NCBI GenBank assembly: GCA_037951105.1
Contig: JBAMJV010002983.1
Span: 1 to 64,000, forward strand
From: Echinarachnius parma
Lineage: Eukaryota > Echinodermata > Echinoidea > Clypeasteroida > Echinarachniidae
DNA length: 64,000 nt
Reading direction: 5' to 3'
In this document: positions 41,057 to 64,000 of the stretch, one piece after another
How positions within the stretch are numbered: the first letter of the stretch is position 1
Layout of the letters: each line of letters opens with the position of its first letter
Position numbers and translations under genes: made by a program
The notes under the pieces: model-generated
What the model saw: only the letters and a program-made list of their open reading frames with translations
Database searches by the model: none
What the model was told of the DNA's origin: nothing

Positions 41057-41430
41057 CTTGGGCCACGTAGCAAGATACTTTTAGCTCTAGAAATGTAAGA
41101 TGCTTTCCATGTTCCGTGGTCACAGCTGGATAAAAACCTTACTTCCTCAATGGTGCTCTAGTCAGAAATAACTAGCTCTGGAAGCGGGCGTCTTTTTTTT
41201 TCTAAAATATTTGTTAAATAGTTTGACAAGGTAACTGTAATTGCGCAATAATCATTGCAATATTAAATTTCGTACAATCCCCTCGGACGACGTCATGATT
41301 ACCGAAGCGTGAAAAGTCTTTGGAAACGTTTCATCATACCCTGGATGATTATGTGAAAGCCAGGTTCAAATTAACAAAGGTATGTGTGACTGTAGTATAG
41401 ATTTATATAGCTTCTCCCAGGGATTACTTC
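41057..41430 (-). promoter_or_regulatory. Promoter / 5' UTR of the minus-strand SRCR gene
   Basis: Read on the minus strand: TATATAAAT at 41409-41401, CCAGGGTATGATGAAACG, CRE-like TGACGTCG at 41295-41288, then sequence conserved down to the ATG (CTGTGACCACGGAACATGG, CATCTTACATTTCTAGAG). It is shared almost base for base with copies ending at 42136, 49258 and 56382. Whether TATATAAAT or a more downstream site sets the start is unknown. Confidence 0.55.
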
Positions 41431-41436
41431 AACCAA

Positions 41437-41851
41437 TAGAGTACAGAAGTGTGATGTCATAAATGATGTCATAAACATTTTTTTAGAATTTTAAAATTTG
41501 GGCTTCATTTTCAGAAAGAACATAACAAATAGTGTCCAAATATCGAAAATCAAAGGAATAGGTTACGTATTGGCTAAGATATGCCCATCGGAATGATTTT
41601 TTGGTCAATGGGCAATCAGTGTTATAGTGCACTGGTTCATAAACTTAGGAACCAGTGCACTGTAACACTGATGGCCCATTGTAGTCAAATTCATTCGGCA
41701 CAATTCGGATGGGCATATCTCAGCCAATACGTAACCTATTCCTTTGATTTTCGGTATTTGGACATTATTTGTTATGCTCTTTCTAAAAAGGAAGTCCAAA
41801 TTTGACAATTCTAAAAAAGTGTTTTTATGACATCAAGGCTTCTGTACTCTA
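41437..41851. mobile_element. 415-bp palindromic foldback element inserted in the promoter
   Basis: The ends are TAGAGTACAGAAG and CTTCTGTACTCTA, and the arms (about 205 bp each) are reverse complements with scattered mismatches, meeting near 41645. The paralogous promoters at 42513-42524 and 55995-56007 read straight through (CCAATAGACCGC on the plus strand, or its complement), so they preserve the empty site. Here CCAA and TAGACCGC flank the element. It carries no gene; apparent frames on both strands are products of the palindrome. Confidence 0.88.
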
Positions 41852-41864
41852 TAGACCGCTTATG

Positions 41865-41941
41865 TAATGTATGCAAATATTATGCGCATGACGTCAGACG
41901 TCAGACTGCCCGTCGTCAAGCTATATTATTTGCATACATTA
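41865..41941. promoter_or_regulatory. Octamer/CRE palindrome, copy 1
   Basis: Inverted arms TAATGTATGCAAATA surround ATGACGTCAGACGTCAGAC. ATGCAAAT is the POU/octamer consensus and TGACGTCA the CREB/ATF consensus. The block recurs at about 42530-42606 and 55913-55990, always the same distance from the TATA-like box, so it is part of the duplicated 5' unit. Confidence 0.6.
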
Positions 41942-41999
41942 CCGAAACCGTCTATTACTGAGCTAATTTGTGGAGATCTTACTTTAGGTAGGTAACCCC

Positions 42000-42620
42000 T
42001 ACTAGTATCCCTCCCAGTGTCCGGTGCTTTTGCAAAATATTGGCTTTAAATTGTGCGAATTATGTGCCCACCGTGCCCCTCCCCCCCCCCCCCCCCCCCC
42101 GTAGCTACATCTGATTAACAAGTCAATCAAAATCATCTTGAGATATCTTAGCAAGATACCTGACATCTCTAGAAATGTAAGATGCTTTCCATGTTCCGTG
42201 GTCACAGCTGAATAAAAACCTTACTTCCTCAATGGTGCTCTAGTCAGAAATAACTAGCTCTGGAAGCGGTTGTCTTTTTTTCTAATATATTTGTTAAACA
42301 GTTTGACAAGGTAACTGTAATTGCGCAATAATCATTGCAAGATTAAATTTCGTACAATCCCCTCGGACGACGTCATGATTACCGAAGCGTGAAAAAGTCT
42401 TTGGAAACGTTTCATCATACCCTGGATGATTATGTGAAAGCCAGGTGCAAATTATAAAGGTATTTGTGACTGTAGTATAGATTTATATAGCTTCTCCTCC
42501 GGATTACTTCAACCAATAGACCGCTTATGTAATGTATGCAAATAATATGCGCGTGACGTCAGACGTCAGACTGCCCGTCGTCAAGCTATATTATTTGCAT
42601 ACATTACCGAAACGGTTTAT
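42000..42620 (-). pseudogene. Truncated SRCR 5' end, copy P2 (promoter plus cut signal exon)
   Basis: On the minus strand this has the octamer/CRE palindrome, TATA-like box (42489-42481), CRE module and 5' UTR, then ATG at 42136 encoding MILIDLLIR before the sequence switches to GTAGCTAC plus a G run and hAT-like repeat sequence (42000-42107). The signal core and donor are lost. It is almost identical to 55870-56520 in inverted orientation, including the breakpoint, so the damaged unit was itself copied. Confidence 0.8.
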
Positions 42621-42635
42621 TACTGAGCTAATTTG

Positions 42636-43000
42636 TGGAAATCTTACTTTAGGTAGGTAACCTCTGACTAGTTAGAGAAGAGAATGGGTGGAGCTTCCAT
42701 TGTTGCTAGGTGACCTCCAATCAATCAGTGAGGTTTCGGGTAGAGATCTTACTTTAGGTAGGTGACCTCTGACTATTTACAGAAGAAAATGGGTGGAGCT
42801 TACATTGTTGCTAGGTGACATCCAACCAATCAGTGAGGACTTGGGTGGAGATCTTACTGTAGATGGAAGACCTCTCACCAATTAGTGAGGGGATGAGTGG
42901 AGATCTTACTGAAGGTAGGTAAAATCCAACCAATCAGTGAGGGAATGGGTGGTGATCACGCCTTAGGTGGGTGACATCCAACCAATTAATGAGGGGATGA
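42636..43000. repeat. Degenerate tandem repeat with CCAAT motifs
   Basis: About five to six units of roughly 60 bp read GGTGGAGATCTTACTTTAGG, then TAGGTGAC-TCCAACCAATCA, then GTGAGG. CCAATCAG is a CCAAT-box sequence. Single or paired units recur near 44243-44325, 48388-48515 and 49323-49527, each next to an SRCR 5' copy. Confidence 0.7.
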
Positions 43001-43004
43001 ATAT

Positions 43005-43545
43005 AATATTAGTGATCCGCCGCGAGGGTCGAAAGGCGCCCACGTGCGCTATATAAGTAGCCACTATTATTATTTTCATTATCATATTATCCAGGGTATG
43101 ATACAAAAATAAGTTTCCCATGATTTTTCACCCTTTGATAATTGTGACGTCGTGCGAAGAACGGAATATAATTTTGCAGTGATTATAGCACAATAGTACA
43201 GTAATCTTGTCGAATTCAAAGGCGCCGATTGTGCTCTATATAAGAAAGCTATCATTATTACTACTATTATATTATCCAATGACTAATAATGAAATAATAA
43301 GTTTACAAAGACTTCTCACGCTTCGGTAAGTGTGACGTCGCGCGAGGGGATTGTACGAAATATAATTTTGCAATGATTATTGCGCAATACAGTCACCTTT
43401 TAAAACTCTTTGAAAACTTAATTAGAAAAAGACGACCGCTTTCAGAGCTAGTTATTTCTGACTAGAGCACCATTGCATAAGTATGGTTATTATTCACCTT
43501 ACCTGTGATCACGAGTTGTCAAGCATCTTGCAAAGTTATCTCAAG
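43005..43545 (+). promoter_or_regulatory. Promoter / 5' UTR of the plus-strand SRCR gene
   Basis: The core occurs twice in tandem here. Each begins with CTATATAAG (about 43040 and 43231) and a TTATTATT stretch. CCAGGGTATGATA (first) or TATCCAATGACTAATAATG (second) follows, then TTCACxCTTxGxTAA-TGTGACGTCG (43147 and 43333). The second continues through AGAGCTAGTTATTTCTGACT into the 5' UTR. Compared with the other copies, the UTR just before the ATG is more diverged (CAAAGTTATCTCAAG). Confidence 0.55.
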
Positions 43546-43621
43546 ATGATGTTGATTAGGCTGATTGTCGCCGTTCTGTTCCTGTTCATCGGACATGTTA
43601 CCAGCCAAACCGATGGCCAAG
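43546..43621 (+). CDS. Plus-strand SRCR gene exon 1: signal peptide
   Basis: The 76-bp exon encodes [20 protein letters not shown] then QTDGQ, ending CAAG|GTGAGC in phase 1. It has the same length and phase as the minus-strand exon at 41056-40981 and differs at a few residues near the N-terminus. Two ATGs are adjacent; the first was chosen because it gives equal length. The next recognised exon on this strand is the SRCR exon at 62803, 19 kb away. The large intron is filled with repeats and broken 5' copies. Confidence 0.75.
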
Positions 43622-43814
43622 GTGAGCATTATTCATATTTTAATATTTCATAATCCTCAAATTATTGGCCTTATGTCAACATTACATTATAGAGCAGTTC
43701 AACCAAATTCGGCATGATTATTAAAAAATGAACATTGTTGAGTATATATATTGTTAAAATATAAAACGTAATACAATGTAGAAATCATTATAAGTTATTT
43801 GTTCTACTACTAAT

Positions 43815-43980
43815 ACCCTTGTACAATTACCCCCCGACGATTTCCCCCAAGGAAAATTACCCCCGTACGATTAACCACCTAGACAACTACCCCCGGATAA
43901 TTACCCCAAAGACAATAACCCCCAAGAATATACTCTACCCCGACGACCTCCCTCTCGATCCCCAGACGAGTACCCCCAAT
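43815..43980. repeat. ATTACCCCC minisatellite
   Basis: About ten degenerate ~15-bp units (GACAATTACCCCCNGACG) occur. The paralogous position in the minus-strand gene (about 40770-40800) has one to two units, so the array expanded after the gene duplication. Confidence 0.75.
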
Positions 43981-44621
43981 TTAGCAATGTGAGTCTCTGT
44001 GGTAGTTGTAGTAGTATTTAGGTTGTCTTTGACGCAAGGTATTTAGGTTGTATTTGAATCAGAATATGTTCTTGTTGTCTTTCTGGTGACTAGTGGGCTC
44101 TGACGAGCCCACCCGACCAACTGAAGAATTAATAGGGCTCAAACATCGCCTCATAAGGGGCAGTTGGGGGTGGGGGCGGGGGGGGGGGGGGGGGGTGGGC
44201 AGCGTTACTTATACAGAGTTCTACGGGCACCTGAAGTTGAGGTCATCTACCAAAGATCGCATTCTCTTCTCTAATTGGTCAGAAGTCACATACCTAAAGA
44301 AAGATCTCCATCCATCCACTCACGGCCTTATGCTGAATAGTTTCAAGTTCAAACACTTGCTACACAGAATGTATGGAAACTCAATACAGTTCGATACATA
44401 CAATTAACACTTCAACTATCAAGTATATGAACTTAACACTTAACGAATTCATGATCCTTGCTTACACTATTATATTATCAGCATTGAGTGCCGAAATACG
44501 ATATGGGGTTATAATAAAGGGAAACGTGGGAATACCCAACTTATTCAATTAATAAACCAAAATATAACGTTTTGAAATTTCGCTTTACTGAATTTTTTTC
44601 GATATGTGTTGTTGTTGTTTC

Positions 44622-44746
44622 CACTGGCGTAAATCTGTTCGGAAAGCACAATGCATTGGGGGGTCGAGCAATTGTTCACAAACCGTTTGTGAACAATTGC
44701 TCGACCCCCCAATGCATTGTGTTTTCCGGACAGATTTACGCCAGTG
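44622..44746. mobile_element. 125-bp palindromic MITE with 8-bp target duplication
   Basis: The ends CACTGGCGTAAATCTGT and ACAGATTTACGCCAGTG are perfect inverses, and the whole element is an almost perfect hairpin (ACAATGCATTGGGGGGTC, GAGCAATTGTTC, AAACCGTTT, and back). GTTGTTTC flanks both sides (44614-44621 and 44747-44754), an exact 8-bp duplication typical of hAT-type integration. The inner arms match the palindrome at 8839-8959. Confidence 0.88.
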
Positions 44747-45734
44747 GTTGTTTCAGTACAAAATTGTATTCATGATACCAATATACGATATTCAGCATGA
44801 ACATTAAAAACATTGCAAATGTTTTGTTAAGAAGATTATGATTTACTTAATTTACTTAACAAATGTGAATTAGTAATTACTAGAAACAAAAATAATTCGA
44901 TACATGACAAGACATAGGTACGAATAAAGTTTACATTATAAAATACAGCCTTTGAAAACAAAACAATTATGGTCTTACTCTAAACATGGTTATTTTTAAA
45001 TCGACTTTCGTTTACAAATTTGTATGAAGTACATGGAAGTCAAAACCACCATGATGTTAATAAACGCCTCCGACCATTTTAATTGTATCAAATAATTGAT
45101 TTGGACAACTACAACTTTTTAAACTAGATAGTCATTGAATACGTTTGACCTAAATATTGATTATTCTAAGCTAATGGGATTAACAGTACAATTTTATTTT
45201 GCTTATAGTACCTACACACTTTTATTTAATCCATTTGAACGTTTATTTTGTGTATTTTTAAAGGGACTTAGCAACATTGTCAAAATCGTCAAAATCAAAT
45301 TCTTGCGGTTCCCTCATACCTTGTTGTATTCGTGTTAACAATAAAATCATGGGACATGTTTCATTTTTTAACATTTCCCTTCTATTACAAAGATATGTAA
45401 GATTGAAGTTTTCAGATAATAAATTATCCGTTGGATTTTCGAAACCGTGTACAAAGTGAGTGCAGTGAGTTAGTGAATATCACTTTACATTTGTACTCAT
45501 TACTCGGCCATATAACATCCATTTAACTTGAAATTTTCACACAATTACACCCAGTGGACATATCAGATACCAACAATATATATTGTATCAACCAATCATT
45601 ACTTTTGCACATGTCAACAAAGCTACTAGATCCCTTTAATATGTCAAATAACTTAAATCCGATTAATTTTAGTATACTCATGTACGTATGTGATTAAATA
45701 AAGTTAATGTAAAATATGATATATATTTTTTGTA

Positions 45735-46110
45735 AGGTAATGAAAAACTGCGTGTCGAATTTGAAAGAACATACTATTTTTATGGCATAATAAACTTTAC
45801 TTGGTCAAAATGGCTGAAATATCAATAAATATATCCAATCGTAATAAATGTGTGCCCCAATTTTATTCGATGTGCTTACACATTTTCAACAATTTTCAAA
45901 AGCAGTTTTTAAAAAGTTGTTAATGATCTCTGTATTTAACCATTATTTCAACAAAACATCACATGCATACTTAAAAATTAAATAAAATAAAAAAAAACAT
46001 AAAAAATGGTTGAAACCAATACATTTTAGAAAGCGGCCTATTCTGTTTTAATGGCTCTTTTGAATGATGACAGGCTTTTCACTTTGTCGTTTAGGTTTTC
46101 TTATCTATGT
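45735..46110 (+). mobile_element. Decayed TTAA-MITE family copy
   Basis: The matching words GGTAATGAAAAACTG, GTGTCGAATTTGA, TCAATAAATATATC, CATCACATGCATA and AATGGCTCTTTTGAATGAT keep the same order as in 1755-2297. The terminal repeats are lost or eroded. Confidence 0.65.
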
Positions 46111-46159
46111 TAAAACTTTTGTCATTCAATTTCATTAATTGGAATTTTATAACAACAAC

Positions 46160-48098
46160 CAGTGGCGTAGCTACGGGGGGGCACGGGGGGGGGGGGGGGG
46201 GGGGGCACGTGCCCCCCCAAATCGTTTGGCAAAAAAAAAAAAAAAAAAAAAATGACGACCCGAATTAGCCAAATGTGTCTATATCATTCATTATTATCAT
46301 GTTTTATTAAATGTGTGATGATAATGATGCTATCAACGATAATAAAGAAGAACATAACGGTCGTTCCCTAGTACTAGCAATAGTGCACCTATATCAGTTT
46401 GAAGAATCCTTCCAATATAGCGCCTTATACAAATTTTCAGTCTCGTGCGCGAGGATCGACGCTCACCGCTTCAGAAGACATAGAGCGCGTATAGGCCTAA
46501 CACATAGCACATGGTAAATCGTCCATCATACCAAGGGCCTTTTCAGGATCTAGAATCTGCCTCCCGCTTTTATAGATAATTTTGACCATTTGATGGGTCT
46601 AGTCACACGACAACAGGCAGGGGACGGGGAGGGGGGACATGCCCCTCCCCATACATTTGAAAGTGGAGGTGATTTTGATTTTATAGCTTGAACTACGAAT
46701 CATTTATTTTGGTCTCGGGTATGCGCCAAATCGCACAATTTAAAGCCCAAAATTTGCAAAAGCTCCCTACAGTGGGAGGGGTACACCCCCTCCCATGGCG
46801 TAGATCCTGGGGGGCAGGGGTGCGGTCGCCCCCCAATGAAAATATTGGGGGCGAGCATATCATTTCGCCCCCCCCCCAAATAATTCTGAAAATAAGGAAG
46901 AAAAAATCGAGTGATATAATGCCAAAGAGGGGAAAGACACATTTATCAATAATTAATCTTCAAAATAGCTGTGTTTTTTTAGTTTGAAAAGGACTGTAAA
47001 TCTCTTTTTGCCGCGCGCTTCGCGCGCATACTGTTTCTCATATTGCAAGTTTAATTTCGGTTTGCTTGAACTCACTTTTCGAACTGTGTTGAGCAGTGTA
47101 ATTTCTCAAACGCACACCTCAAACGAAGTTTATTAAACCCTCATCTATAGCACACCGTCACAGAAAATAAAATAATCTGAAATAATATATCTTTCAGTAA
47201 ATTCGGTCCATATAAGCTGAACGCAAATCATATTGGAATATCATGTCACCCCACATTTGAAAGTGGAGGAGATTGTCCCCCTCCCTTTGTCATTATGTAT
47301 GTTTGGTTCCATACTTATTTACTTCATATTACGTGAAATTTCTTAGGTGTGCACCAAATCGCACAATTTCACGCCCCAAAATACAAAAGCTCCCTACTGT
47401 GGGAGGGGGACACCCCCTCCCACACCCTCCCCCACTCGGTCGCTTCGCTTCCTCGCAATGTCTCCCCTCCACTTTTGAGAAGTTGTTGACGCCCTTGCTT
47501 AGTTTCACTATATATCACTATCACTATATCGATGGCTCTATAGTATACAGGATCACGTGGATCAATCTCATGCAAGGCTCAATCTTTCCGCGCTATTCCC
47601 GTTTAAAAATACGTTACGAGTAGATTCACTATTATAATACAATGACAAATAAAAAGACAATAATGACCATACTTCTACAGTGATATTTTAAACACCAATT
47701 AAAAAAAATTCTCCATGTGGGAGGGGGTAAACCCCCTCCCACACCCTCCCCCCAATAAGTATAGACAAGCACGGATAAATACGTGAGCGTATAGGAGTCT
47801 GGTGTGTGTGCATGTACACGTAGGTTCGATTGTGTTTGTATACTTTATCATGAGGGAGATGATTTAAGTCCTGATTTCTTTAATTCAGTATTATCAAATT
47901 TCCTTCCAAGGTATGCACCAGATTGCATTATTTCAAGTGAAAATTTGCAAAAGCTCCTTACCGTGGGAGGGGGGACACCCCCCTCCCACACCCTCCCCCC
48001 CCCCCCCTCGGGCGCTACCCGGCCTCGGGCTTGGTCGCTCCGCTCCCTCGCAGTTGTGCCCCCCCCCCCCCAATCCGTTGACCCTCGCTACGCCACTG
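46160..48098. mobile_element. hAT-like nonautonomous element A (1.94 kb)
   Basis: Starts CAGTGGCGTAGCTACGGG and ends CTCGCTACGCCACTG, with ACAACAAC duplicated exactly on both sides (46152-46159, 48099-48106). An 8-bp duplication and CAGTGGCG ends are typical of hAT transposons. Inside are a ~25-base G run, an A run, a GCCGCGCGCTTCGCGCGC palindrome near 47010, and three or four repeats of a block with CACCAAATCGCACAATTT, AAAAGCTCCCTAC and GGGAGGGGGACACC. No transposase frame. Confidence 0.85.
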
Positions 48099-48654
48099 AC
48101 AACAACAACAACAAAATGCACACGCAATGCAGGTATATTGAATATAAAGGTTAACATAGCCCACATGTGCATTATACATTATGAAAAGGAATTTTATGGA
48201 AGACTAGTAATGTCATCAGAGATGGTGCTGTATGGAAAATTCCTCCGTCTTTGATTGTACTTGTTACAACAATGCTTTATGTTCAGACGCCTATCATTTA
48301 TCTGTACTTTTCCATGTTGATTTTGGAAACCAAATCAATACCCAAAATACATCATGCACCTATAATGATTTTGGAGGCCACCTTAATTTAAAGTAAAATC
48401 TCCACCCATCTCCTCACTAATTGGTTGGGGGTCACCTATATAAATAACGATCTCCACCCATCCCCTCACTGATTTTTGTCAGTGGTCACCTACCTAAAGT
48501 TAGATCTCCATTGAGCTAAAATATAGATTCGCGACGCCGTTTTCTATCCCAAATTGTCCCTTACCATCTTACGATCGCTCTCATCTCTAGGCCAAAGTCC
48601 GCACAAGGCCGCCTGCGCGTCCACGGTATATTTGCCATTCGATACAGCAAGGAT

Positions 48655-48890
48655 CTGGGAGCAGGGGCCCGATTACGGACCAGCGACATTTACCATAGTA
48701 ATTAGCATCATTGGCTCTAACTCATTGATGTCAATATGCTAGAATTACGTACAAATCAATAGAACGTAGCAGAGCACACATACCGCCCTTATATACTCAT
48801 TCAACCGTAAAGCATATCTTGAGATCAGTGGAACTAGGTCTGCTCCTGGGTCATGATCGTGGTCTCGGCCACTGGCTGAAGTTCTCACTC
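48655..48890 (-). repeat. Dispersed repeat, inverted copy of 4120-4355
   Basis: Shared words in reverse complement are ACGATCATGACCCAGGA, TAGTTCCACTGATCT, GAGTTAGAGCCAATGATG, GGTAAATGTCGCTGG and CGGGCCCCTGC. The partner lies in the last intron of the minus-strand gene. Function and family unknown. Confidence 0.7.
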
Positions 48891-49014
48891 AGTTTTCTCA
48901 GCTTGACACCTCCCAAAACCCAAGTACCTTGATATTTTATGTAGTAGCCTAATTCCTGGGTTCGTGACAAGTACCTTTTGTTAATTTGCACCTGTGAGTG
49001 AACATACTATACGA

Positions 49015-49335
49015 TCCAGGGTATGATGAATAGTTTATTTTCACGCTTCGGTAATGGTGACGTCATGCGGGGCGATTTTAACTGTGAATCACCAAGTCAA
49101 AGTGTATAAAATGTAAAAAAGACAACCGCTTTCAGAGCTAGTTATACCTGACTAGAGCACCATTGAGGAAGTAAGGTTTTTATTCAGCTGTGACCACGGA
49201 ACATGGAAAGCATCTTACATTTCTAGAGCTAAAAGTATCTTGCTACGATATCCCAAGATGATGTCGATTCAGCTGATTATCGTCGTTCTGTTCATGTTCA
49301 TCGGACATGTTACCAGCCAAACCTACCTAAAGTAA
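49015..49335 (+). pseudogene. Truncated SRCR 5' end, copy P4
   Basis: CCAGGGTATGATGAATAG, a TGACGTCA module, and a 5' UTR close to the 41056 copy lead into ATG at 49258 and [20 protein letters not shown] then QT. Homology stops after QT at about 49322 and the CCAAT-repeat sequence (ACCTACCTAAAGTAAG) follows, giving a stop at 49333. No donor remains, so it can encode only a secreted or degraded 25-residue peptide if transcribed. Confidence 0.8.
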
Positions 49336-49529
49336 GATCTCCACCCAAGTCCTCACTGATTGGTTGGATGTCACCTAGCAACAATGTAAGCTCCACCCAT
49401 TTTCTTCTGTAAATAGTCAGAGGTCACCTACCTAAAGTAAGATCTCTACCCGAAACCTCACTATTTGGTTGGAGGTCACCTAGCAACAATGGAAGCTTCA
49501 CCCATTCTCTTCTCTAACTAGTCAGATAG

Positions 49530-51060
49530 TGGGGGCTCTTAAGTCAATATATGGGACCAAGTGTGCACTTCTGGATAAAAGCATGAATTTTGGCAGACAG
49601 ATAGTTAAGACCTTCTTCTTCAAGAAATTTGATGGAAGCAAGTTTGCACGGCCCATTCTTGGCCGCCATCTTGGATTTCAAAATGGCCGCCATCTGGCAC
49701 CTGTTTTCATCAATATCTCAGCAACTAAAACAGCTAGAGAGTTATTTTCAGTGGCTATACCCACATTATGGAGGCCAACGAATCACCTGAATCGAATATC
49801 AAAACTTCAAATGGCAGCCATCTTGAATTTCAAAATGGCCGCCATCTGGCACCTGTTTTCATCAATATCTCAGGAACTAAAATAGCTAGAGAGTTATTTT
49901 TAGTGGCTATACCCACATAATGGGGGCCAACGAATCACCTGAATCGAATATCAAGACTTCAAATGGCAGCCATCTTGAATTTCAAGATGGCCCCCATGGG
50001 AAGCTTATAGATATTTAACTCCATCTTAGAAACTAAAGCAATTACGGAGTTCATTTCAACTGATATGCCTATCTGTTTGTGGTCACCTTGTAACAATTTA
50101 CCAATGGATGGTGGGAAGCAATTACAGTATGCACCTCCCATTTATCTCCTTTATCTCAGAAACTAAAACAGCTAATGCATTAATTTAGGCGGCTATACCC
50201 ACTTATTTGGGTCCAACGAATCACATGAATTCACCTCAAAGGCGTCAATTGGCAGCCATCTTGAATTTCAAGATGGCTGTCACGGGGATTAGCATATTTA
50301 ACTGTTTATATCAGAAACTAAAAACGGCACAAAGTTCTTATCAGTTGCTATGCCTTTTTGCTGTGGCCAACGACTTGTCTGTCTTTGAAAGAAACATGAG
50401 GTTGAAAGCAAATAAGCAAGACCCATTTTGGCCGCCATCTTGAATTTCATAATGGCTGACATATGGAACCTATTTTGCATGTATTTCAGAAACTAAAAAG
50501 GATGGAGAGTTCCTTTTAGTGTCTTTAAACACATTTTCGGGGTCAACAGATCACCTGGATTGACTTAAAATTTTAAAAATAGTTGGGCCATCTTGAAGTT
50601 CGATAATCGATATGGCTGCCATGATAAGTCGATATAGATTTGATTCAAATATGCGAGACTAAAAAAGAAACAGAGTAGGTTACTGTGGGTATTCAGTCTG
50701 GTGTTCGCAATAAATAACATGGAGTACATTAATTTTGAAAGACCTAAGTCAGAAGCACCCACAGTGGTTGGAAGCAATTTAGTCTTCAATTTCAAAATGG
50801 TCACCACCTGACAAATTTGTTTGCTTCAAAATGTTGACATTCCCATATATTTTGTACATATATCACACTCAGTTCCTGTATTTAAGCAAGGGGTTAATAT
50901 TTCGTCATTGTCGGCGTCAATTAATGACCTAGATCGACTTTATAGATCTTGTCTTCAAATGACATTCATCATAAATTTCAAGATGGCCACCCTGGGAACT
51001 GTATTCGGCTCTAGCTCTTTATTACAGATCACACTGCAACACAGTTAATTTGAGTGGTTA
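49530..51060 (+). repeat. CCATCTTGAATTTCAAGATGG repeat array
   Basis: Units of about 165 bp begin with CCATCTTGAATTTCAAAATGG and continue with GCCGCCATCTGGCACC, ATCAATATCTCAG-AACTAAA, AGAGAGTTATTTT and CCAACGAATCACCTGAAT. The first three units are well kept, later ones decay. An inverted array at 55190-55860 includes the same start (GTGCACTTCTGGATAAAAGC). The core contains AAGATGGC, the YY1-type motif, on both strands. Confidence 0.8.
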
Positions 51061-51807
51061 TACTTAATGTTGATGTCACTGAATTACCTGGATTGCTTTT
51101 AAATTGTCAGGTGGTAGCCATCATGTGAATCATTGTATTAATTGAATTCTTGCTTCAGTGTTCCACGAATATGGTTTTGAGAGACAGCTCCGTATCTCTG
51201 TTATGTGATTCCTTGCAAACATCCTTTTGTAGTTTGTCCATGCTAAGGCATGCTCCTTTTCTCAGTCGTGTCGTTATGAGCTGCTAAGCTTTGGTGTAAT
51301 GTTCTTGACGGCTTGTAATACACGTTAATGCCAAATTCCTTCAAAGAGCTTTTGAGGCACCCTTGATGTAGGGTAGAACGATATGTCCTTTTAAGTGTGG
51401 GTTTATCTAGTTGGCTTTGGCCCATTTTGAAGCCCAATTATATTAGACACAAGTGGAGAGAGTCAAGGGTTGATATGGATCGGTATGAACTAAGTATTGA
51501 TCACTCCAACGTTCACAGGGGTGACTGGAGGTGAAAATATTATATGAACCAACTGTGTGAATTTATCTCCGATAAATCTTCCAAGCTACCAAGCTTCCAA
51601 GCTAACATTTAAGTGCCCACATGCCCTCCTTCTCCTCGATAGGGAACGCTAAGTCCGGATAAATGGAGTTCAAGTGATTAATTAACTCCTGCACGAATTA
51701 TTTCTTGAATTTGGTGTTGAGTGTCATGCTGCTATATGAATCTGCTCGCTAAAAGTGTCACTGTATAGTCAAAGTATCGGTTTGCGCAGCGTAGACATTC
51801 TTCCAGG

Positions 51808-53532
51808 CAGTGGCGTAGCTACGGGGGGGCACGGGGGGGGGGGGGGGGCACGTGCCCCCCCAATCGTTTGGCAAAAAAAAAAAAAAAAAAAAAAATGCCG
51901 ACCCGACATGAAGCCAAATGTGTCTACAATGTATATCATTCATTATTATCACGTTTTATTTAATGTGTGATAATAATCATTATCAACGATAATAACCAAG
52001 AACATAACAGTCGTTCCCTAGTACTAGCAATAGCGCACCTATATCAGTTTGAAGAATCCTTCCAATATAGCGCCTTATGCAAATTTTCAGTCCCGTGCGC
52101 GAGGATCGACGCTCACCGCATTTCAGAAGACATAGAGCGCGTATAGGCCTAACAAACTTCCTAGCATGGTAAATCGTTTATCATACCAAGGGCTCTTTTA
52201 GGATCTTGAATCTGCCTCTCGCTTTTATAGATAATTTTGACGCCTTCATGCAGGCTATAAAGGCGCATAGCTGCACTACGTAGTCCTAAATGTCTAGGTA
52301 AAGACAAACTTCTTTTACTAATTTCTTCACTCCAAATGCACCCGTTTCATTAATTCATGATGCATAATCTAGGCATATTGTTGATGATCATGATTGAAGG
52401 AGCACCAGTCATCTTCTCCAGAGTCGATATCTGCATTAGTTGAGGATATAGGCCTACTGAAACTAATTCAAGGGACCCGAGCATAGCTGGGTTTTTTTTG
52501 TTTTGAAAAGGACTGTAAATCTTAATTTTTGCCGCGCGCTTCGCGCGCATATTCTGAAATACTGATATATACGAAATGTATTAGACCCTCATCTATCATG
52601 TCTATAGCACACTATCATCGGAAAATAAAATAATTTGAAATAATATATCTGTTAGTAAATTCGTTCTATATGCGCTGAATGCAAATAAAATTAAAAAATG
52701 TTATGTCCCCCACATTAGAAAGGGGAGGAGATTGTCCCCCTCCTTTGTCTTTGTCATTAAGTATGTTTGGTTCCATACTTATATACTTTATATTAAGTGA
52801 CATTTCTGTCTTAGGTGTGCACCAAATCGCACAATTTCAGGCCCCAAAATACGAAAGCTCCCTACTGTGGGAGGGGGACACCCCCTCCCACACCCTCCCC
52901 CAATCGGTCGCTTCGCTTCCTCGCAATGTCTCCCCTCCACTTTTGCTTAGTTCCATTGGAGCTCAATGCCCTAGACTATATCGATGGCTCTATAGTATAC
53001 ATGATCACGTGGATCCATCTCACGGGCTTAATCTTTCCTCGCTATTACCGTTTTAAAATACGTAACGAGTAGATTCACTATTATATACCATTTTAACACC
53101 CATGATTAAGACAATGATAAAGACAATAATGACCATACTTCTACAGTGATATTTTAAACACCAATTTCAAAAATTTCAAAAAAATTGGGAAGGGGTGAAC
53201 CCCCTCCCACACCCTCCCCCAAATAAATGTAGACAAGCATACGGCGTGAGAGTATTTGAGTCTGGTGTTTGTGTACACGTAGGTTTGATTGTGTGTGTAT
53301 ACTTTATCATGAGGGAAATGATTTCTTTAATTCAGTATTATCAAATTTCCCTCCAAGGTATGCACCAAATTGCATTATTTCAAGTAAAAATTTGCAAAAG
53401 CTCCCTACCGTGGGAGGGGGGACACCCCCCTCCCACACCCTCCCCTCCTCGGGCGCTACGCGCCCTCGGGCTTGGTCGTTCCGCTCCCTCGCAGCTGTGC
53501 CCCCCAATCACTTGACCCTCGCTACGCCACTG
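51808..53532. mobile_element. hAT-like nonautonomous element B (1.73 kb)
   Basis: Same family as 46160-48098: CAGTGGCGTAGCTACGGG start and GCTACGCCACTG end, here with an exact CTTCCAGG duplication (51800-51807, 53533-53540). The G run, A run, GCCGCGCGCTTCGCGCGC palindrome (near 52530) and GGGAGGGGGACACC blocks are all present in the same order. No transposase frame. Confidence 0.87.
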
Positions 53533-53849
53533 CTTCCAGGAGTTGGACAATATATAAATTCAGACATGCTGGTTCTATATAATATACTCTAGATAATTGT
53601 GTCCTCAAGTGTTGATTGGTCTATGGGAACTAAAGTAGATAATGTACGTAAAGTCACGTTAGCTGCTACGCTTAATCGAGAGTTAGCTACGTGGTGAAAT
53701 GTCTGTTACACAAGAGGAAATATAATAGGATACATGTAGGTCTGGACCAGTTTGTCTGTGTCTCTGTGAGCCAGGTTTCTAACCCCTGAAAGAACATGAA
53801 CACATACAGGGTCCACATACATTGGCTACAATTGATCTTTTCCCAACAA

Positions 53850-54900
53850 ATCCATGAAGCAGCAATAATATTCCCTCTCACTACCATCCTATGAAATGTG
53901 TAAATGAAACACTTGAAAAAATAGACATTGACAATGCACCGAAACCACACGTTTGGTGGTATTGTTATATGGATGACACTCATCCGAAACTCAAGAAAGA
54001 ATTTGTGAAGGAGTACACTTTTAGTTCCCTAACGAAGGGAAGGATAAGTCGTTAGTGTTCCTTGACACTTTTATATAGTCAATCCATGATAGTGATCAAA
54101 CTTGATTGTAGCCTGAACGTTAAGATTTATCGGAAAGCAACTCACACTGTCCAATGTCTCATTTCATCTTTTACCAATTTGAACAAACATTAGGAGTGAC
54201 TGTTACTTTGTTCCATTATCGTAATTATTCACCAATCTTTTTGCTGTCAAGATGATAACATATTACTAGTCTCTCTTATGTGTGTTGCAACTAATGTATA
54301 TTTGGGCTTAAAAAGCTACAGAAGGATCACCCCACTGAGAGGAACACGCAATGCTCAAAATGACACTCATCCGACCTGATATTAGGAGTCTACTGAATTT
54401 CAATTTAATCGGGCATTAGGGTGTATCTAAAGCCGACAAGAACAAAACACCAAATCTTTGTATTGCCTAAAGACAACATACAAAATAATTGTGGGGCGTA
54501 GTATTGTAATTCCATGCAAAGGGTGGACTACTAGCCATTTGGCTGCAAGGAATCAAACAAAAGTCCTATGCAAGGAATCATAAGTGAAAGAAATGTAGCA
54601 ATCTCCCAAGACCAGATATTTGGAACACCGACACCCAATTCTGTCCTCTGGAGTGTCTCAAAACAGGCCACATTGAGTCTCCTGACCATCAAGTCTGACT
54701 GACAAAAGGTCTACATTTCGGAAATGTGGCACAATACAAAAAGGGTGAAGAAAGATATATGCATGTAATTGTATACATCCTGGAATTTCAACCCACACTG
54801 AACAGAGACAGTGTGCGAAACAAACTATACTTGATGACGTCTACAATCAGAAAATTGGTCGTTTCATAAGAAAGATTAACAGTCAGGTAATATAAGGAAG
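53850..54900 (+). mobile_element. Decayed Penelope-like retroelement fragment
   Basis: Recognisable pieces in changing frames are YMDDTHPKLKKEFVKEYT, KDKSLVFLDTF, KATHTVQ-like and, near 54790, FQPTLNRDSVRNK. The DDTH-K...E spacing followed by FLDT and a YRK(P/A)THT-like stretch is characteristic of Penelope-like RTs rather than LINEs. It is heavily eroded; only the C-terminal half of the RT and downstream part can be followed. Confidence 0.6.
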
Positions 54901-55189
54901 TGAACATTTGTATGGTCAACAAAACGCTCAAACTTTTTCCATTTAGTTAGTTTTCATTAGTGGGGACTGAAACATTTGCAAATAATGCTCGAATGAATGT
55001 TATTGCTTTTCAAAAGGCAGGTTTGTACACTCATTGGATTCTCTTTTGAACTACCTCCTACCCGATAACTTTGTTTAATCAATCGAATCATGATCAAGTA
55101 GACTTCTATTTTGTTCAGAGTATCTTTATATCATTATATATCAGCAACATTGCTCAATTGCTTCCAACCTAGGATGGGCATACCCATCA

Positions 55190-55860
55190 AAGTGCACTTA
55201 CTGATTTTTATTCTGAGATACATAATTGAATAGGCTACCCGTGGCAGCCATCTTGAAATTCAAGATAGCTACTTATTAAGACGATCCAGGTGATGTGAGT
55301 GTACCCGGCTGAAATAAACTCTCCAGCTGTTTTAGTTTTTGTAATATTGGAGAAAATAGGGTTTCAGATGGCAGCCATTTTGAAATTCAAGATGGCGGTT
55401 AAAATGGGAAGTGCATAATTGCTTCCATCAATCTATTGGTAAATTGTTACAAGTTGACCACAAACAGATACTAGTAGGCATATCAGTTTAAATGAACTCT
55501 GTAATTGCTTTACTTTCTGAGATGGAGTAAAATATAGGCTTCCCATGGCGGCCATCTTGAAATTCAAGATGGATGCCATTTGAAGTGTAGATATTCGATT
55601 AAGGTGATTCGTTGGCCCCCAGTATGTGGGTATAGCCACTGAAAATAACTCTCTAGCTGTTTTAGTTGCTGAGATATTGATGAAAACAGGTGCCAGATTG
55701 CGGCCATTTTGAAATCCAAGATGGCGGTCAGGAATGGGCCGTGCAAAATTGCTTCCATCAAATTTCTTGAAGAGGAAGGTCTGAACTATCTGTGTGCCAA
55801 AATTCATGCTTTTATCCAGAAGTGCACACCCCATGACCTAAGAGCCCCCACTAAGAGGTT
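55190..55860 (-). repeat. Inverted copy of the CCATCTTGAATTTC array
   Basis: On the minus strand it reads GGGGGCTCTTAGGTCAT, GTGCACTTCTGGATAAAAGC, then ATCTTGGATTTCAAAATGGC units, matching 49520-50150. It abuts the truncated SRCR copy P5, as the plus-strand array abuts copy P4, so the array and promoter copy probably moved together. Confidence 0.8.
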
Positions 55861-55869
55861 ACTTACCTA

Positions 55870-56520
55870 AAGTAAGATTTCCACAAATTAGCTCAGTAAT
55901 AAACCGTTTCGGTAATGTATGCAAATAATATAGCTTGACGACGGGCAGTCTGACGTCTGACGTCATGCGCATATTATTTGCATACATTACATAAGCGGTC
56001 TATTGGTTGAAGTAATCCGTAGGAGAAGCTATATAAATCTATACTACAGTCACAAATACCTTTGTTAATTTGAACCGGGCTTTCACATAATCATCCAGGG
56101 TATGATGAAACGTTTCCAGACTTTTTCACGCTTCAGTAATCATGACGTCGTCCGAGGGGATTGTACGAAATTTAATCTTGCAATGATTATTGCGCAATTA
56201 CAGTTACCTTGTCAAACTATTTAACAAAAATATTAGAAAAAAAGACAACCGCTTCCAGAGCTAGTTATTTCTGACTAGAGCACCATTGAGGAAGTAAGGT
56301 TTTTATTCAGCTGTGACCACGGAACATGGAAAGCATCTTACATTTCTAGAGATGTCAGGTATCTTGCTAAGATATCTCAAGATGATTTTGATTGACTTGT
56401 TAATCAGATGTAGTTACGGGGGGGGGGGGGGGGCACGGTGGGCACATAATTCGCACAATTTAAAGCCAATATTTTGCAAAAGCACCAGACACTGGGAGGG
56501 ATACCCCCCCCCCCCCCCCC
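55870..56520 (+). pseudogene. Truncated SRCR 5' end, copy P5
   Basis: The copy has the octamer/CRE palindrome (about 55913-55990), empty site of the 415-bp element (55995-56007), TATATAAAT (56030-56038), CRE module (ATGACGTCG near 56142), 5' UTR, and ATG at 56382 encoding MILIDLLIR before the switch to GTAGTTACGGG and hAT-like sequence. It is the inverted twin of 42000-42620. Confidence 0.82.
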
Positions 56521-57395
56521 ATTCCCTCCCCCGCTTGGTCGCTTTGCTCCCTCGCAATGCCCCTCCCACTTTAGAGAACCCTTTCCCCCTTCTTGAAATG
56601 CGCACCAGTTCCAGATCCACCTTGCCAAACAATGTACGCCAGAAAAAAACATAGATACTCATGGGATCAACAACGTGATTTTGAGTGAGTCCACGAGCGT
56701 TTGATCCCGGTGGACAGGGAATATATCCCTCACTTTTTGGTGGGGGGGGGGGGGGGGGGGGGTGGTGGGGGGAGGGGAGCCTGTACAAGTACAAACAATC
56801 TTATACAAATATGCATAATACACAATAATAATGATAAGGACATTAATAACCATACTTCTAAGTTATATTTAAACACAAATTGCGGAAATTCATCCACGTG
56901 TAAACCCCTTCCCACATCTTCCCCAAAATAATTCAGTATAGACATGCACGGACGATGTGAGCATATTTGAGTCTGGGGTTTGTGTTGGTTCGATTGTGTT
57001 TGTATACTATACAGGGTGGCCCAGAAATAACGGAACGGGGTGCTTGCTATAATGAAGGCACATGATACCCGTCATAGCAACTACTAACGTTCAATGCGTG
57101 CGCCATTGTTAGTACCCTTTCTTCTCTATACACAGCTGAACGCACACTCACAATGGCGCACGGTTGACCGTTACTCGATGCAGTATGGCGGGCATCATGA
57201 GTCTTTAGTATGGCAAGTACCCCGTTCCGTTATTTGTGGGCCACCCTGTATAGCGGTGTAATCATGAGAGAGATGATGTAAGTCATGATCTCTTTAATTT
57301 AGTACATGTATTATCAAATTTCCTCCCCAGGTATGCACCAGATTGCATTATTTCGAGTGAAAATTTGCAAAAGCTCTCATCCCTCAGACAGCCTT
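56408..57395. repeat. Fragments of the hAT-like family with a nested mariner-type MITE
   Basis: Blocks with CGCACAATTTAAAGCC, TTTGCAAAAGC-CC, GGGAGGGATACCCCC and ATGCACCAGATTGCATTATTTC match the interiors of 46160-48098 and 51808-53532, without clear ends. G runs lie near 56417 and 56742. The mariner-type element at 57012-57248 is inserted in it. Confidence 0.6.
57012..57248. mobile_element. Mariner-type MITE, 237 bp
   Basis: CAGGGTGGCCCA-GAAATAACGG and CCGTTATTTGTGGGCCACCCTG form ~29-bp inverted ends, with TA on both sides (57010-57011, 57249-57250). TA targets and CAGGGTGGCC ends are typical of Tc1/mariner elements. No transposase. Confidence 0.85.
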
Positions 57396-57719
57396 AACAA
57401 ATAAATAATGGTTTACTAGTATTGTTACTTTTAAAATTGACTTTCAATTTGTATATTAAAAGTAAATGTTCAAATTCACTATGATGGTAATATGCACTCG
57501 ATCATTTGTATTGAATTGGCTTGTTCATATTGGATAGTTATTGAATACGTTTGACCTAAATGTTGATTATTCCAAGCTAATGCAATTTACACTTCACGTT
57601 GTTATTGCTTACGTTATTTAAACACTTGTATTACAATTTTAACATTTATTTTGTGTATGTTAAATACATGTATGTTGAATTTATTTATTATACTCATGTA
57701 CGTATGTGATTAGATAAAG

Positions 57720-59519
57720 GGCAATTCCACGATAACACCGGGACACTTCAGAACACATTTTCACTTTCCAAATGTAAATAACAAACTAAGTGTAAAGAAT
57801 GAGAACAATCTTTTATTGTATATCTTTGACTGTTATCACAAGCAACTTTGAAAAAAAAAAATTAATACAAAATTTTCATTTATTAATGAGTTACGCATCA
57901 TTAATTACTACTGTAACACCGGGACGCAAAAAGGACATGCTTTTTTTAACACTTTACATACTGGCAAAACTCTGTGAAGTTAATGAACATTTTGAAACCT
58001 GGCTATATTTATTTGGTTTAGTAGAGACTCAATAATAATAATTAGGTGTTATTTGGAAAAAAATCTATCATGAAGATAATTATGAACTAGCATATAAAAA
58101 ATTGTACCGTAACACCGGGACCGTAACACCGGGACCTCTGAAAGGGCATGTACAAAGTCTATGGAAAATTAGGTTGTCTTACTATACTGGCAAAACTCTG
58201 TGAAGTTAGTGAATATTCTGAAAAGTGGCTATATTGATTTGGTTAAGTAGAGACTCAATAATAATAATTGGGTGTTATTTGTAAAAAAAAACTATTATCA
58301 AGATAACTATGAACTAGAGTATACAAAATTGTACCGTAACACCGGGACTGTAATGTACAAAGTCTATGGAAAATCAGGTTGTCTTACTTTACTGGCAAAA
58401 CTCTGTGAAGTTAGTGAACATTTTGAAAAGTGGCTATGTTGATTTGGTGTACTAGAGACTCAATAATAATAATTGGGTTTTATTTGTAAAAAAAATCTAT
58501 TATCAAGATAATTATGAACTAGAGTATACAAAATTGCACTGTAACACCGGGACTGTAATGTACAAAATCTATGGAAAATCAGGTTGTCTTACTTTACTGG
58601 CAAAACTCTGTGAAGTTAGTGAACATTTTGAAAAGTGGCTATGTTGATTTGGTGTAGTAGAGACTCAATAATAATAATTGGGTGTTATTCATAAAAAAAA
58701 ACTATTATCAAGATAATTATGAACTAGAGTATACAAAATTGCACTGTAACACCGGGACTGTAATGTACAAAGTCTATGGAAAATTGGGTTGTCTTACTAA
58801 AAACTCAAACCATTTTTACTTTAGGTAGTAGATCAAGCAACAATTTAGTATTATACATCAAGCTACCACCCAAACATGACAGAAACTAGCTGGTCACTTT
58901 AGTATGCAGTGATTCTCTATGCTCCCTGTACTATTGCAATGTAAGTCCTGGTGTTACAGTCCCGGTGTTACAGTGACCGTAACACCGGGACCACTATTCA
59001 ACCATTTTAAATTAATTAATGAAATGTCCAATCATCATTTTGATACTTGTTTATGGTAGATATGTGTGGTCAAGATTTGGGCAATTTAGGTTTTTTTGTT
59101 TGTGTTCGTAATTTTCTTACAATGCTAAAAATATCAGTTTTTACCGTAACACCGGGACAATATTCTTTATCATAAATGAATTGTTCATTGAAGCGTATCA
59201 AAATGACAAAAATGAACTTCAATGATTTTTTTTATTACATTCAACCCTAAACCTCTGAGAAAATATAATAAGTGTTTACCTCCTGTCTTACTTGCTCTTG
59301 CTACATTGATTTATTTTCAACACGTTTTCCAGACATTTGGATGAAAATTAATTATTCATATTTTATGCGCATATTTTAATATGTTCCTGATGTATATATC
59401 TATTTTAAAGGTCAGACTTTAAAAATTCAGTTCTTAAGCTTTATTTTGATACCAAAATTGAAACTATCTGACCATTTTGAAAATTTGGTGGTCATGTCCA
59501 CTTTATCGTGGAATTGCCC
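57720..59519. mobile_element. 1.8-kb nonautonomous element with GTAACACCGGGAC motif array
   Basis: Inverted ends GGGCAATTCCACGATAA and TTATCGTGGAATTGCCC are flanked by TAAA on both sides (57716-57719, 59520-59523). Inside, GTAACACCGGGAC (or a one-base variant) occurs at 57733, 57913, 58109, 58123, 58336, 58541, 58746, 58979 and 59156, and inverted at 58945 and 58959. From 58109 to 58790 a ~205-bp unit is tandemly repeated about three times. The motif probably binds a transposase; no transposase frame is present. Confidence 0.8.
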
Positions 59520-60189
59520 TAAAGCTAATGTAGCATATGAGTGCAATACGATTTATTTAGTTGTTACAACCTCCACACTTAATTCCTACTCATGTTCCCT
59601 CCTTAATTGTTTATGCATTAGTCATTTGTTTAATTTTAGAACTAGGAAACACCAATTGATGCTACCCCAAAATATGTTATTGACTTTATATATTAATTAA
59701 TCTATGTATCGAGAAAAAACATTAACAAAACCTTCTGATGATCATTAGTATTCATGGCAAATTCGTTTTTTTATTATTTATGCGTATCCTTTTCTCTCAC
59801 TATATTTGATGTATATTAAACAAGAGATATCTTTACATTTCGTGATTTCATCTCAGCTGTTTTGATGTTTGAGAATACTCCTGCATTTTATCGAACATGC
59901 CACTGTAATTAAGCGCCAAGAAAATCCAACTTGTTCTGGAGAGGGGTAATTTAGTATTATGACGTGACGTTTTATTATACTATCCCCTCAGATAGTGTAA
60001 AATGATAATGAAACAAGGCGCAGTCTAAGTAGAGCAAACCCTCGGAAAATAGATAAATTTTCGGTCTACATCATTATTAGTATTATTATTATTATTTTGT
60101 TTAAAGTATATAATTATGAAGTTAGGTAAAACAAAAACATTGCACACGCAATCTAAGTCCTGATTATGAAGTTGAAATAGCACGTTTGT

Positions 60190-60560
60190 GCATTAAACAT
60201 TATGAATAGGAATTTCATGGAAGACTAGCAATGACAACAGAGAGGGTGGTGAATGGAAAATTCCTCCGTCTTAAATTGTATTTGTTACAGCTCAGCGTTA
60301 TGTACAGGCGTCGTTTCTCATTCGATGTTCTCTGTATTTTCCCATGTTGATTTCAGAAACCAAATGAATACATCATAATACAACAATACTCAGTGCGCCG
60401 CGAAATTGGAAAAGCCCAGAACGTGGGCTATATAGGTAGCCATCATTGTCATTATTGTTATTATACTATCCAGGGTATGATGAACGAACAATTTTCAAAG
60501 GATATTTCACGCTCCGCTAAATGTGACGTCTCGCGATGTTTTGCTCTGAATAGTATGTAT
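60190..60560 (+). promoter_or_regulatory. SRCR promoter module copy P6 without signal exon
   Basis: The dispersed 180-bp block (60190-60370) is followed by GGGCTATATAGGTAGCC, an ATT-rich stretch, CCAGGGTATGATGAACG and TTCACGCTCCGCTAAATGTG-ACGTC (to about 60535). The rest of the 5' unit is absent. It supports repeated copying of this unit along the plus strand. Confidence 0.6.
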
Positions 60561-62802: not shown

Positions 62803-63114
62803 TTCGCCTTCAAGATGGAGACAATGTCTATGAAGGTCGAGTAGAGGTTTATTACAACGGAACCTGGGGAACTATTTGTGATAGTGGGTGGGATTCCTTG
62901 GATGCCCAAGTTGTCTGCCTAAGTCTTGGCTTCCAACCAGCAGACAATGACGCACTACTTGGAATACAATTTGGGCCAGGCACCGGAAACATTCTACTAG
63001 ATAATGTTGAGTGTACTGGGACCGAGTCAGCCATCTTGAATTGTACACACAGCGGTCTAGGAATCCATAACTGCGATGCTCAGCATTCAGGCGCAGGTGT
63101 TCGCTGCCAGCAAG
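62803..63114 (+). CDS. Plus-strand SRCR gene: SRCR domain 1 exon
   Basis: The 312-bp phase 1-1 exon runs from TTACACAG|TT to CAAG|GTAAAT and encodes [100 protein letters not shown]. Six cysteines. It is the paralogue of 34595-34906, and intron sequence continues to match just downstream. It fits the phase of the signal exon at 43621. The gene continues beyond the window, so the number of further domains is unknown. Confidence 0.9.
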
Positions 63115-64000
63115 GTAAATTAAGATTTATTAACTTCAAACTCCATGTTTATGGTATGATTGATGACAAAATTTCCTATAGGATCGTTTAGATTAATCTT
63201 TGATTAGACATCGATATAATGTGTGATTATTTAAATCATGTTACTAACCGTATAATGCATATTCGCATTAATTCAACGTATATGGAACAGCAAGTCAGTT
63301 ACAGCACAGACTTTGATAACATAATTCATTTCAAACCAGGGGAACTGACTAGAAGTACATTATAGTCAGGTTCAATATGTAAAGTTGTAAACTTTTTGGA
63401 GGGCTTTGTAAACCTATACATTTTTGGAATCTGTATAGTATAAGAAGTCAGAAAACCAATGTTTACAATTTGCCGGAAGCATTTATTGCGGCCATCTTGG
63501 ATTTTCAAAATGGCCGCCATTGCAATAGGTGTATCTCAATATCTCAGCTTCCAGGTGGCTTAGAGTAATGATTTGAACGGCTAAACATACGTTTTAAGGG
63601 ATGGGGAAGACAATGGTACAATGAAAAATAATATCAACATAACCGCAAAGCGGCCATCTTGGATTTTCAAAATGGCCGACTTGAAAATCAGTGTTTTTCC
63701 ATATTTCAGCATTCAAGTGGCTTAGAGTAATGAATTGAACGGCTAAACACATGTTTTCAGGGATGGGGAAGACAATGGTACAATGCAAAATAAGTCAAAC
63801 ATAACCAAAATGCGGCCATCTTGGATTTTCAAAATGGCCGACTTGAAAATCAGTGTTTTTCATATCTCATCACTCATCATCTAAGTGCCCTAGAGTAATG
63901 ATTTCAATGGCTAAACATACATTTTCAGGGATGGGGAAGACAATGGTACAATGTAAAATAAGTCAATCATAACCAAAAAGCGGCCATCTTGGATTTTCAA
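63115..64000 (+). repeat. Intron with ~163-bp GGCCATCTTGGATTTTC tandem repeat at the window edge
   Basis: The first 60 bp are paralogous to the intron after 34595 (minus strand). From about 63484, four units begin with GCGGCCATCTTGGATTTTCA at 63487, 63651, 63812 and 63981 and continue with TGGCTTAGAGTAATGA, ACGGCTAAACA and GGGATGGGGAAGACAATGG. The array runs off the right end. It shares the GGCCATCTTGGATTT core with the 49.5-kb array, but the spacers differ. Confidence 0.85.

Follow-up and report, generated by a model that had tools for sequence, protein, structure and literature searches.

Can a receptor gene family obtain new starts by copying a promoter together with its export signal, independently of the rest of the gene, or do such copies just reflect unstable, repeat-rich DNA? 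This question is raised by a stretch of 64,000 nucleotides (hereafter the window) of the echinoid Echinarachnius parma (assembly GCA_037951105.1, contig JBAMJV010002983.1, positions 1 to 64,000 of the forward strand), in which a first-pass annotation had listed six copies of one 5' module, made of a putative promoter and a signal-peptide exon, in the neighbourhood of SRCR-domain exons, and had put forward both possibilities. We propose, with a probability of about three in four, that this array results from local duplication, exchange, transposon insertion and decay in the shared 5' region of a divergent pair of SRCR genes. Each gene would possess one complete start unit, composed of a TATA promoter, a leader with the motif TGACGTC and a signal-peptide exon with a phase-1 donor (41056 and 43546, the copies being named here by a position in the window). 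The six remaining copies would be incomplete products of local duplications, some older and some younger; their breaks would lie at minisatellite and poly-G repeats, and they would in part have recombined among themselves and been split by transposon-like insertions. Judged from their sequence, these six copies most likely hold no usable signal exon and contribute no protein.

Two divergent SRCR genes

The content of the window is that of animal DNA, with multi-exon SRCR genes, long interspersed nuclear elements (LINEs) and a long terminal repeat (LTR) element. SRCR exons occupy the minus strand between ~34.9 and 7.4 kb and, starting at 62.8 kb, the plus strand; those of each strand presumably form one gene, gene A and gene B, respectively. 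All five open reading frames (ORFs) scanned, out of 11 seen, match the SRCR domain (Pfam PF00530) with 72.9-112.1 bits for a curated cut-off of 26.1, and the 11 SRCR exons examined all start in phase 1 after ACAG/TTCG (the slash marks the splice junction). Exon 1 of both genes consists of 25 codons and one base and encodes a hydrophobic signal. Its donor reaches 11.1 bits in gene A (AAG/GTAAGC) and 10.6 bits in gene B (AAG/GTGAGC), as scored here and below with an approximate donor table drawn from general knowledge and not trained on this species. In silico, the signal exons of 41056 and 43546 join the SRCR exons of their own gene in frame, phase 1 to phase 1.

The two genes share a succession of similar blocks: exon 1 and the early intron (80% identity over 323 bp), a block between exon 1 and the SRCR exon (68% over 158 columns, a score reached by none of 2000 shuffles), a block referred to as UP (84% over 207) and the first SRCR exons with their flanks (81% over 414 bp). 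The order of these blocks, i.e. exon 1 region, 158-column block, UP and SRCR exon, is the same in both first introns. The comparison also gave rows from a dispersed poly-C/G repeat and one row in opposite orientation, located in poly-G. Read from this sequence, A and B are inverted, head-to-head (divergent) paralogues. Nucleotides 31-75 of exon 1 are identical between 41056 and 43546 (45/45, synonymous sites included); identity is 80-89% in the gap-poor segments of leader and intron, and 80-86% in the adjoining intron segments. The six differences between the two exons all change the protein and are all located within the first nine codons. The 45/45 identity fits constraint at the nucleotide level or a recent short conversion tract in the two working exons.

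Eight copies of one 5' module

The six copies of the first-pass annotation (41056 and 42136 on the minus strand, 43546, 49258, 56382 and 60475 on the plus strand) all match one module and are real. A promoter profile built from five of them (41056, 42136, 43546, 49258 and 56382) matched seven places in the window: its source copies, recovered by construction with expectation values (E) of 7e-82 or better, and two stretches that were not part of it, 43079-43216 (E 8.1e-20) and 60458-60536 (E 1.2e-9). A core profile, built with 43046-43217 and without 60475, found 60426-60538 (E 4.6e-13), and the best scores in 20 Markov-shuffled windows used as control were 6.7 bits for the promoter and 8.0 bits for the core. 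The pattern TATATA-N80-110-TGACGTC, written after viewing this same window, occurs six times in it, every time in a module, for 0.08 occurrences expected. We take the motifs of the module to be a TATA box, a site like the cAMP response element (CRE-like TGACGTC) and an octamer-like ATTTGCAT; in a MAFFT alignment of the copies the TATA boxes do not all fall in one column.

The count of six was incomplete, a seventh (43046-43217, plus) and an eighth copy (~36146-35867, minus) being added here. The seventh is a partial promoter abutting the module of 43546, and its span from TATATAA to TGACGTC is 102 bp, versus 103 bp in 43546. The eighth is a relic inside intron 1 of gene A, also picked after viewing the window. 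Its two colinear matches (8.9 and 9.5 bits) are each inside the range of shuffled windows (best 10.4 and 9.0); taken as one stretch, it scores 77.4, the highest of 750 window stretches (the top two overlap the relic and the next reaches 58.6), and none of 2000 shuffles of itself scores as high. It reads as 19 residues followed by a stop, which precedes the former donor. A weak exon-like stretch at 39991 (minus), with 58.6, stays below the shuffle maximum of 62.2 and is left out of the count of copies. No match was given by an exact scan of viral contigs and prokaryotic genome contigs for the leader sequence, nor by Rfam at gathering thresholds or by a tRNA scan.

Some of the earlier descriptions of single copies hold only in part. 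Copy 41056, regarded as intact, is so for its exon, and a palindromic insertion of ~413 bp is present upstream of its TATA box. Copy 60475, regarded as the module only, indeed has no exon and is reduced to ~113 bp from TATA to TGACGTC. Copy 49258, regarded as cut after the signal core, keeps this core and has lost the TATA side too, its homology starting at 48964. The missing parts are complementary among the copies: the TATA side in 49258, the exon in 42136 and 56382, and the late leader and exon in 43046 and 60475.

Duplication, insertion and probable exchange

The minus strand of 42862-42005 is identical at 831 of 862 positions (~96%, repeat included) to 49327-49526 joined to 55854-56504, which defines an 860-bp duplicon present at 42 kb and, in inverted orientation, at 49 and 56 kb. 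Copies 42136 and 56382 are cut as previously annotated, but by a single event, as one poly-G repeat interrupts both at an identical position within this one duplicon. In 49258, the letters ACC are the last that the exon shares; from there it passes into a ~52-bp minisatellite, and its in-phase donor is lost. Of this minisatellite, 49327-49526 has 97.5% identity to 42663-42862 (minus). Joining the flanks of a 6.3-kb insertion (49527-55853) restores the 42-kb sequence, the sole difference at the junction being three extra bases, AGA, a target duplication, and 49258 and 56382 were therefore formerly neighbours. The treatment of the six listed copies as independent units was rejected on these grounds, 42136 and 56382 being one duplicon and 49258 and 56382 a former pair.

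A dispersed poly-C/poly-G repeat family was observed at 40522-40632, 46708-46796, 47336-47422, 47884-47988, 52779-52890, 53331-53435 and 57316-57376, and a repeat of similar wording is the one that cuts the exon in the duplicon of 42136 and 56382.

The 6.3-kb insertion has the marks of a foldback transposon: long inverted ends (327/374 and 295/333 identical in inverted orientation) holding ~152-bp tandem repeats (49660-49997), the AGA duplication and an empty site at 42 kb. Six of its internal ORFs, among 29 listed for the region, were scanned against Pfam without any match, and no transposase is found among them. The second insertion, a palindrome of ~413 bp (41437-41851, 352/438 self-complementary), parts the double-TGACGTC region from the TATA region in the promoter of gene A; the upstream part so detached (41852-42004) has a duplicate at 42516-42672. 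The terminal inverted repeats and target duplication of the palindrome are like those of a miniature inverted-repeat transposable element (MITE), its uninterrupted site is kept in 42136 and 56382, and an exact-match search for two of its motifs gave no second copy within the window. Both insertions would most simply be younger than the duplications. Altogether, the junctions at the minisatellite and poly-G repeats, the inverted duplicon and the two transposon-like insertions with their empty sites bear out the first-pass suggestion of unstable, repeat-rich DNA.

Tandem arrays with units of 205 bp and 162 bp were also observed at 58148-58798 and 63488-64000, and the 162-bp unit has a GGCCATCTTG...TTCAAAATGGCC theme in common with the ends of the 6.3-kb element.

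The divergence between copies is not uniform along the module. In the 5' block, 41056, 42136 and 56382 differ mutually by 3-4%, and 43546, 43046, 49258 and 60475 differ from these three by 25-39%. Nearer the start codon, it is 49258 that differs from 41056 by 3%, and 42136 by 25%. Because the closest relative of a copy changes between the 5' block and the start-codon side, the copies are mosaic. Left of -28, 39 of the 40 informative sites of 41056 agree with 42136, and on the right all 21 agree with 49258; copy 42136 switches toward 43546 near -11 (6/8 sites). None of 5000 permutations was as strong in either case.

Other observations fit less well with a history of exchange and decay and have to be set against it. 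For 49258, no switch between 41056 and 43546 was found (3029 of 5000 permutations as strong), and a TATAAA is present at another place in this copy (-153). The motif TGACGTC does not vary among the seven aligned copies, and the promoter is complete in 42136 and 56382, which are identical at 226 of 233 positions of the 5' block. The invariant columns are moreover clustered across five copies (9 of 10000 permutations for the sum of squares, 197 of 10000 for the longest run), so that the cut copies could keep a function. Because this clustering is not significant among the three old copies alone (2246 of 10000; 2504 of 10000 for the two most decayed), constraint on the cut copies is not established, and according to the history of duplication and decay they would presumably be silent or neutral.

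Alternative explanations

The alternative that survives best is that of tandem promoters, in which 42136, ~1.1 kb upstream of 41056 on the same strand, and 43046, directly upstream of 43546 and likewise on its strand, would start transcripts that continue or are spliced into the intact exon 1 of gene A or B. It would alter the expression and not the protein, and is compatible with local duplication and decay; we regard it as possible but somewhat unlikely. The promoter of 42136 is undisturbed, with its double TGACGTC, ATTTGCAT, TATATAA and leader, whereas 41056 has its own upstream part split off by ~413 bp; donors of 6.1 and 7.2 bits are present in the leader of 42136. Upstream ATGs in the leader are less favourable. 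On the side of gene B, 43046 has TATATAA and TGACGTC at nearly the spacing of 43546, but differs from this copy at 27% of sites. The claim that the copies furnish new promoters could accordingly be retained in a weaker form, tentatively, for promoters without coding content, which gene A would receive from 42136 and gene B from 43046.

The first-pass annotation had also envisaged a supply of alternative first exons, every copy giving its own promoter and signal peptide to the SRCR exons. The location of 49258, 56382 and 60475, in sense orientation inside the presumed first intron of gene B, and the intact hydrophobic core of 49258 agree with such an array, which is nonetheless very improbable in view of the predicted splicing. 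A usable in-phase donor is found in two of the five copies with a start codon (41056 and 43546) and not in 42136, 49258 or 56382: among the donors listed before the stop, the in-phase ones reach 2.2 bits in 42136 and 56382 and are absent from 49258, versus the 11.1 and 10.6 bits of the intact exons. The best donor of 49258 before its stop (+74, 7.7 bits) is in phase 2 and its use would give a frameshift and an early stop. Alternative first exons are unlikely for these reasons, and the claim fails for the three cut copies. Furthermore, none of the three unites a full promoter with the signal core, which is lacking in 42136 and 56382, 49258 being devoid of TATA-side homology. Usable splicing of the cut exons was thus rejected, on the donor scores and the frameshift of 49258.

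Slightly less probable still is a transposon carrying the promoter module as cargo and inserting promoters into genes. Although copies are found in both orientations beside repeats, with transposon-like ends nearby, the ends of the 6.3-kb element (49527 and 55853) leave the modules outside, which led us to reject this candidate; at 42 kb the module is present and the element absent. The borders of the 42/56 duplicon, those that were read, show no apparent inverted repeat or target duplication. UP makes the co-duplicated unit longer, and its orientation is the same in the three cases where it occurs. An assembly artefact, by which a haplotype or palindromic mis-join would have made false inverted copies, is just as improbable: marine invertebrates can be several percent heterozygous and the 42/56 copies differ by ~3-4%, but A and B are ~20% different with separate insertions, the 860-bp duplicon has different flanks and the 3-bp target duplication is clean.

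A possible ancestral inner start

Three copies of the block UP were found in the window, and downstream of each lies a module of the same orientation (~750, 625 and 57 bp away). Because it precedes the module in the three copies, the older duplications carried more than the promoter. Between UP and the relic exon of gene A, the stretch 36703-36610 matches the core of 60475 best among 300 stretches, yet 4 of 2000 shuffles score as high, and the promoters of 43546 and 42136 do not match the stretch upstream of the relic above shuffles (65/200 and 28/200, respectively). If this core were real, A and B would present the same order of UP, core, (exon) and SRCR exon, which suggests an ancestral inner start.

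A turnover of first exons can be sketched from this, as a speculative reading whose parts are taken jointly. The ancestral gene, prior to the A/B duplication, would have had two complete promoter and signal-exon units. The outer unit would correspond to the present 41056 and 43546; the inner unit, behind UP near the SRCR exons, would be reduced to the relics 36146 in gene A and 60475 in gene B. The inner start would have decayed in both genes, the outer start would now carry them, and the broken copies might still donate in sequence exchange and act as extra upstream promoters (42136 and 43046). If this turnover were true, such clusters would allow promoter change to be measured while the secreted product stays the same.

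Features of the window

The coordinates of the modules, genes and insertions are given in Table 1.

Table 1. Location of the SRCR gene starts, module copies, shared blocks and insertions in the window
Feature	Position	Strand	Remarks
Gene A, exon 1 coding part	40981..41056	-	Start codon, signal peptide, phase-1 donor; intact
Gene A, putative promoter/5' leader module	41057..41436	-	TATATAA and TGACGTC
MITE-like palindromic insertion in gene A promoter	41437..41851	.	TA on both sides; ends ambiguous by 2 bp
Gene A, putative promoter, upstream part	41852..42004	-	Double TGACGTC, ATTTGCAT
Gene A, first SRCR-domain exon found downstream	34595..34906	-	312 nt, phase 1 to phase 1
Gene B, putative promoter/5' leader module	43225..43545	+	
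Gene B, exon 1 coding part	43546..43621	+	Intact
Gene B, first SRCR-domain exon found downstream	62803..63114	+	312 nt
Duplicon, copy 42136	42005..42862	-	Minisatellite, full promoter, start codon; exon cut after ~30 nt by poly-G repeat
Copy 56382, second copy of the 42-kb duplicon	55854..56504	+	Full promoter; exon cut after ~30 nt by poly-G repeat
Copy 49258	48964..49326	+	Leader and signal exon, without TATA side
~52-bp minisatellite	49321..49526	+	
6.3-kb insertion (6327 bp)	49527..55853	.	Inverted terminal repeats, ends TAGTGGGGGCTCTTA; splits the 49258/56382 pair
Seventh copy, 43046	43046..43217	+	Partial promoter, TATA to just past TGACGTC; abuts 43546 module; E 8.1e-20
Copy 60475	60426..60538	+	TATA to TGACGTC core only
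Eighth copy, 36146, decayed	35867..36146	-	Signal-exon relic and intron start, inside gene A intron 1
Possible decayed promoter core of 36146 (weak)	36610..36703	-	Between UP and relic exon
UP block upstream of 36146	36894..37078	-	
UP block, other copies	48167-48339; 60185-60369	+; +	

Several other elements were observed in and around gene A. Downstream of its SRCR exons, a tyrosine-rich ORF (NYDYAYEEI..., 895-1188, minus) could encode a cytoplasmic tail; its Pfam scan gave no match. The gag/protease region of an LTR element, with zinc knuckle and aspartyl protease, is located inside the gene (11359-13487, plus). The presumed first intron of gene A houses a LINE that encodes a reverse transcriptase (37382-39594, plus). 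Another LINE ORF (23299-24489, plus) encodes an endonuclease (Pfam Exo_endo_phos) and shows a 2A-like stretch of 10 residues in its N-terminal part. 2A-like sequences occur in such elements of sea urchin.

Comparison with known systems

In the clustered protocadherins and UGT1A, several promoter and first-exon units of the same strand stand upstream of shared exons, each with a usable in-frame donor. The locus described here likewise has several units upstream of shared exons, but one usable donor per gene, and fails as an example of an alternative-first-exon system. Literature searches, at the level of listings and within open-licence PMC, found no paper on duplicated SRCR 5' modules. Massive tandem expansions of SRCR genes are described for sponge and sea urchin, each SRCR domain being encoded by one exon in the latter (PMC10855680). 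As in the expansions covered there, the present SRCR genes are clustered, appear grown by local duplication and have one exon per domain; unlike here, the topic of the relevant passages of that paper is the duplication of domains and genes, 5' modules are not discussed in them, and the word "promoter" does not occur in its main text.

A second parallel is the Sp185/333 (SpTransformer) family of sea urchin, for which the corresponding sections of PMC5103432 report segmental duplications edged by repeats, including a partial one without a gene. Both are immune gene clusters with short repeats at the duplication edges and both orientations. They differ by the gene family and by the repeats, GA/GAT short tandem repeats there and a ~52-bp minisatellite with poly-G here, and a section heading of that paper denies pseudogenes in its family, whereas broken copies are present here. 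As for the 6.3-kb element, it resembles Tetris of Drosophila virilis, as portrayed in parts of PMC4079207, by its internally repeated terminal inverted repeats, with units of ~220 bp in Tetris and ~152 bp in the present element. Tetris seems to be nonautonomous, and the six ORFs scanned here hold no transposase. Galileo, according to the portion of PMC3573991 concerned, is a further foldback transposon of that terminal structure. The element differs from both by its sequence and host.

We would class the locus with the other cases of duplication and decay in immune-type gene clusters of invertebrates, the events being unusually well resolved here: a single locus displays the copying, recombining and breaking of the start of an immune-type receptor gene, and the insertions give the order of events.

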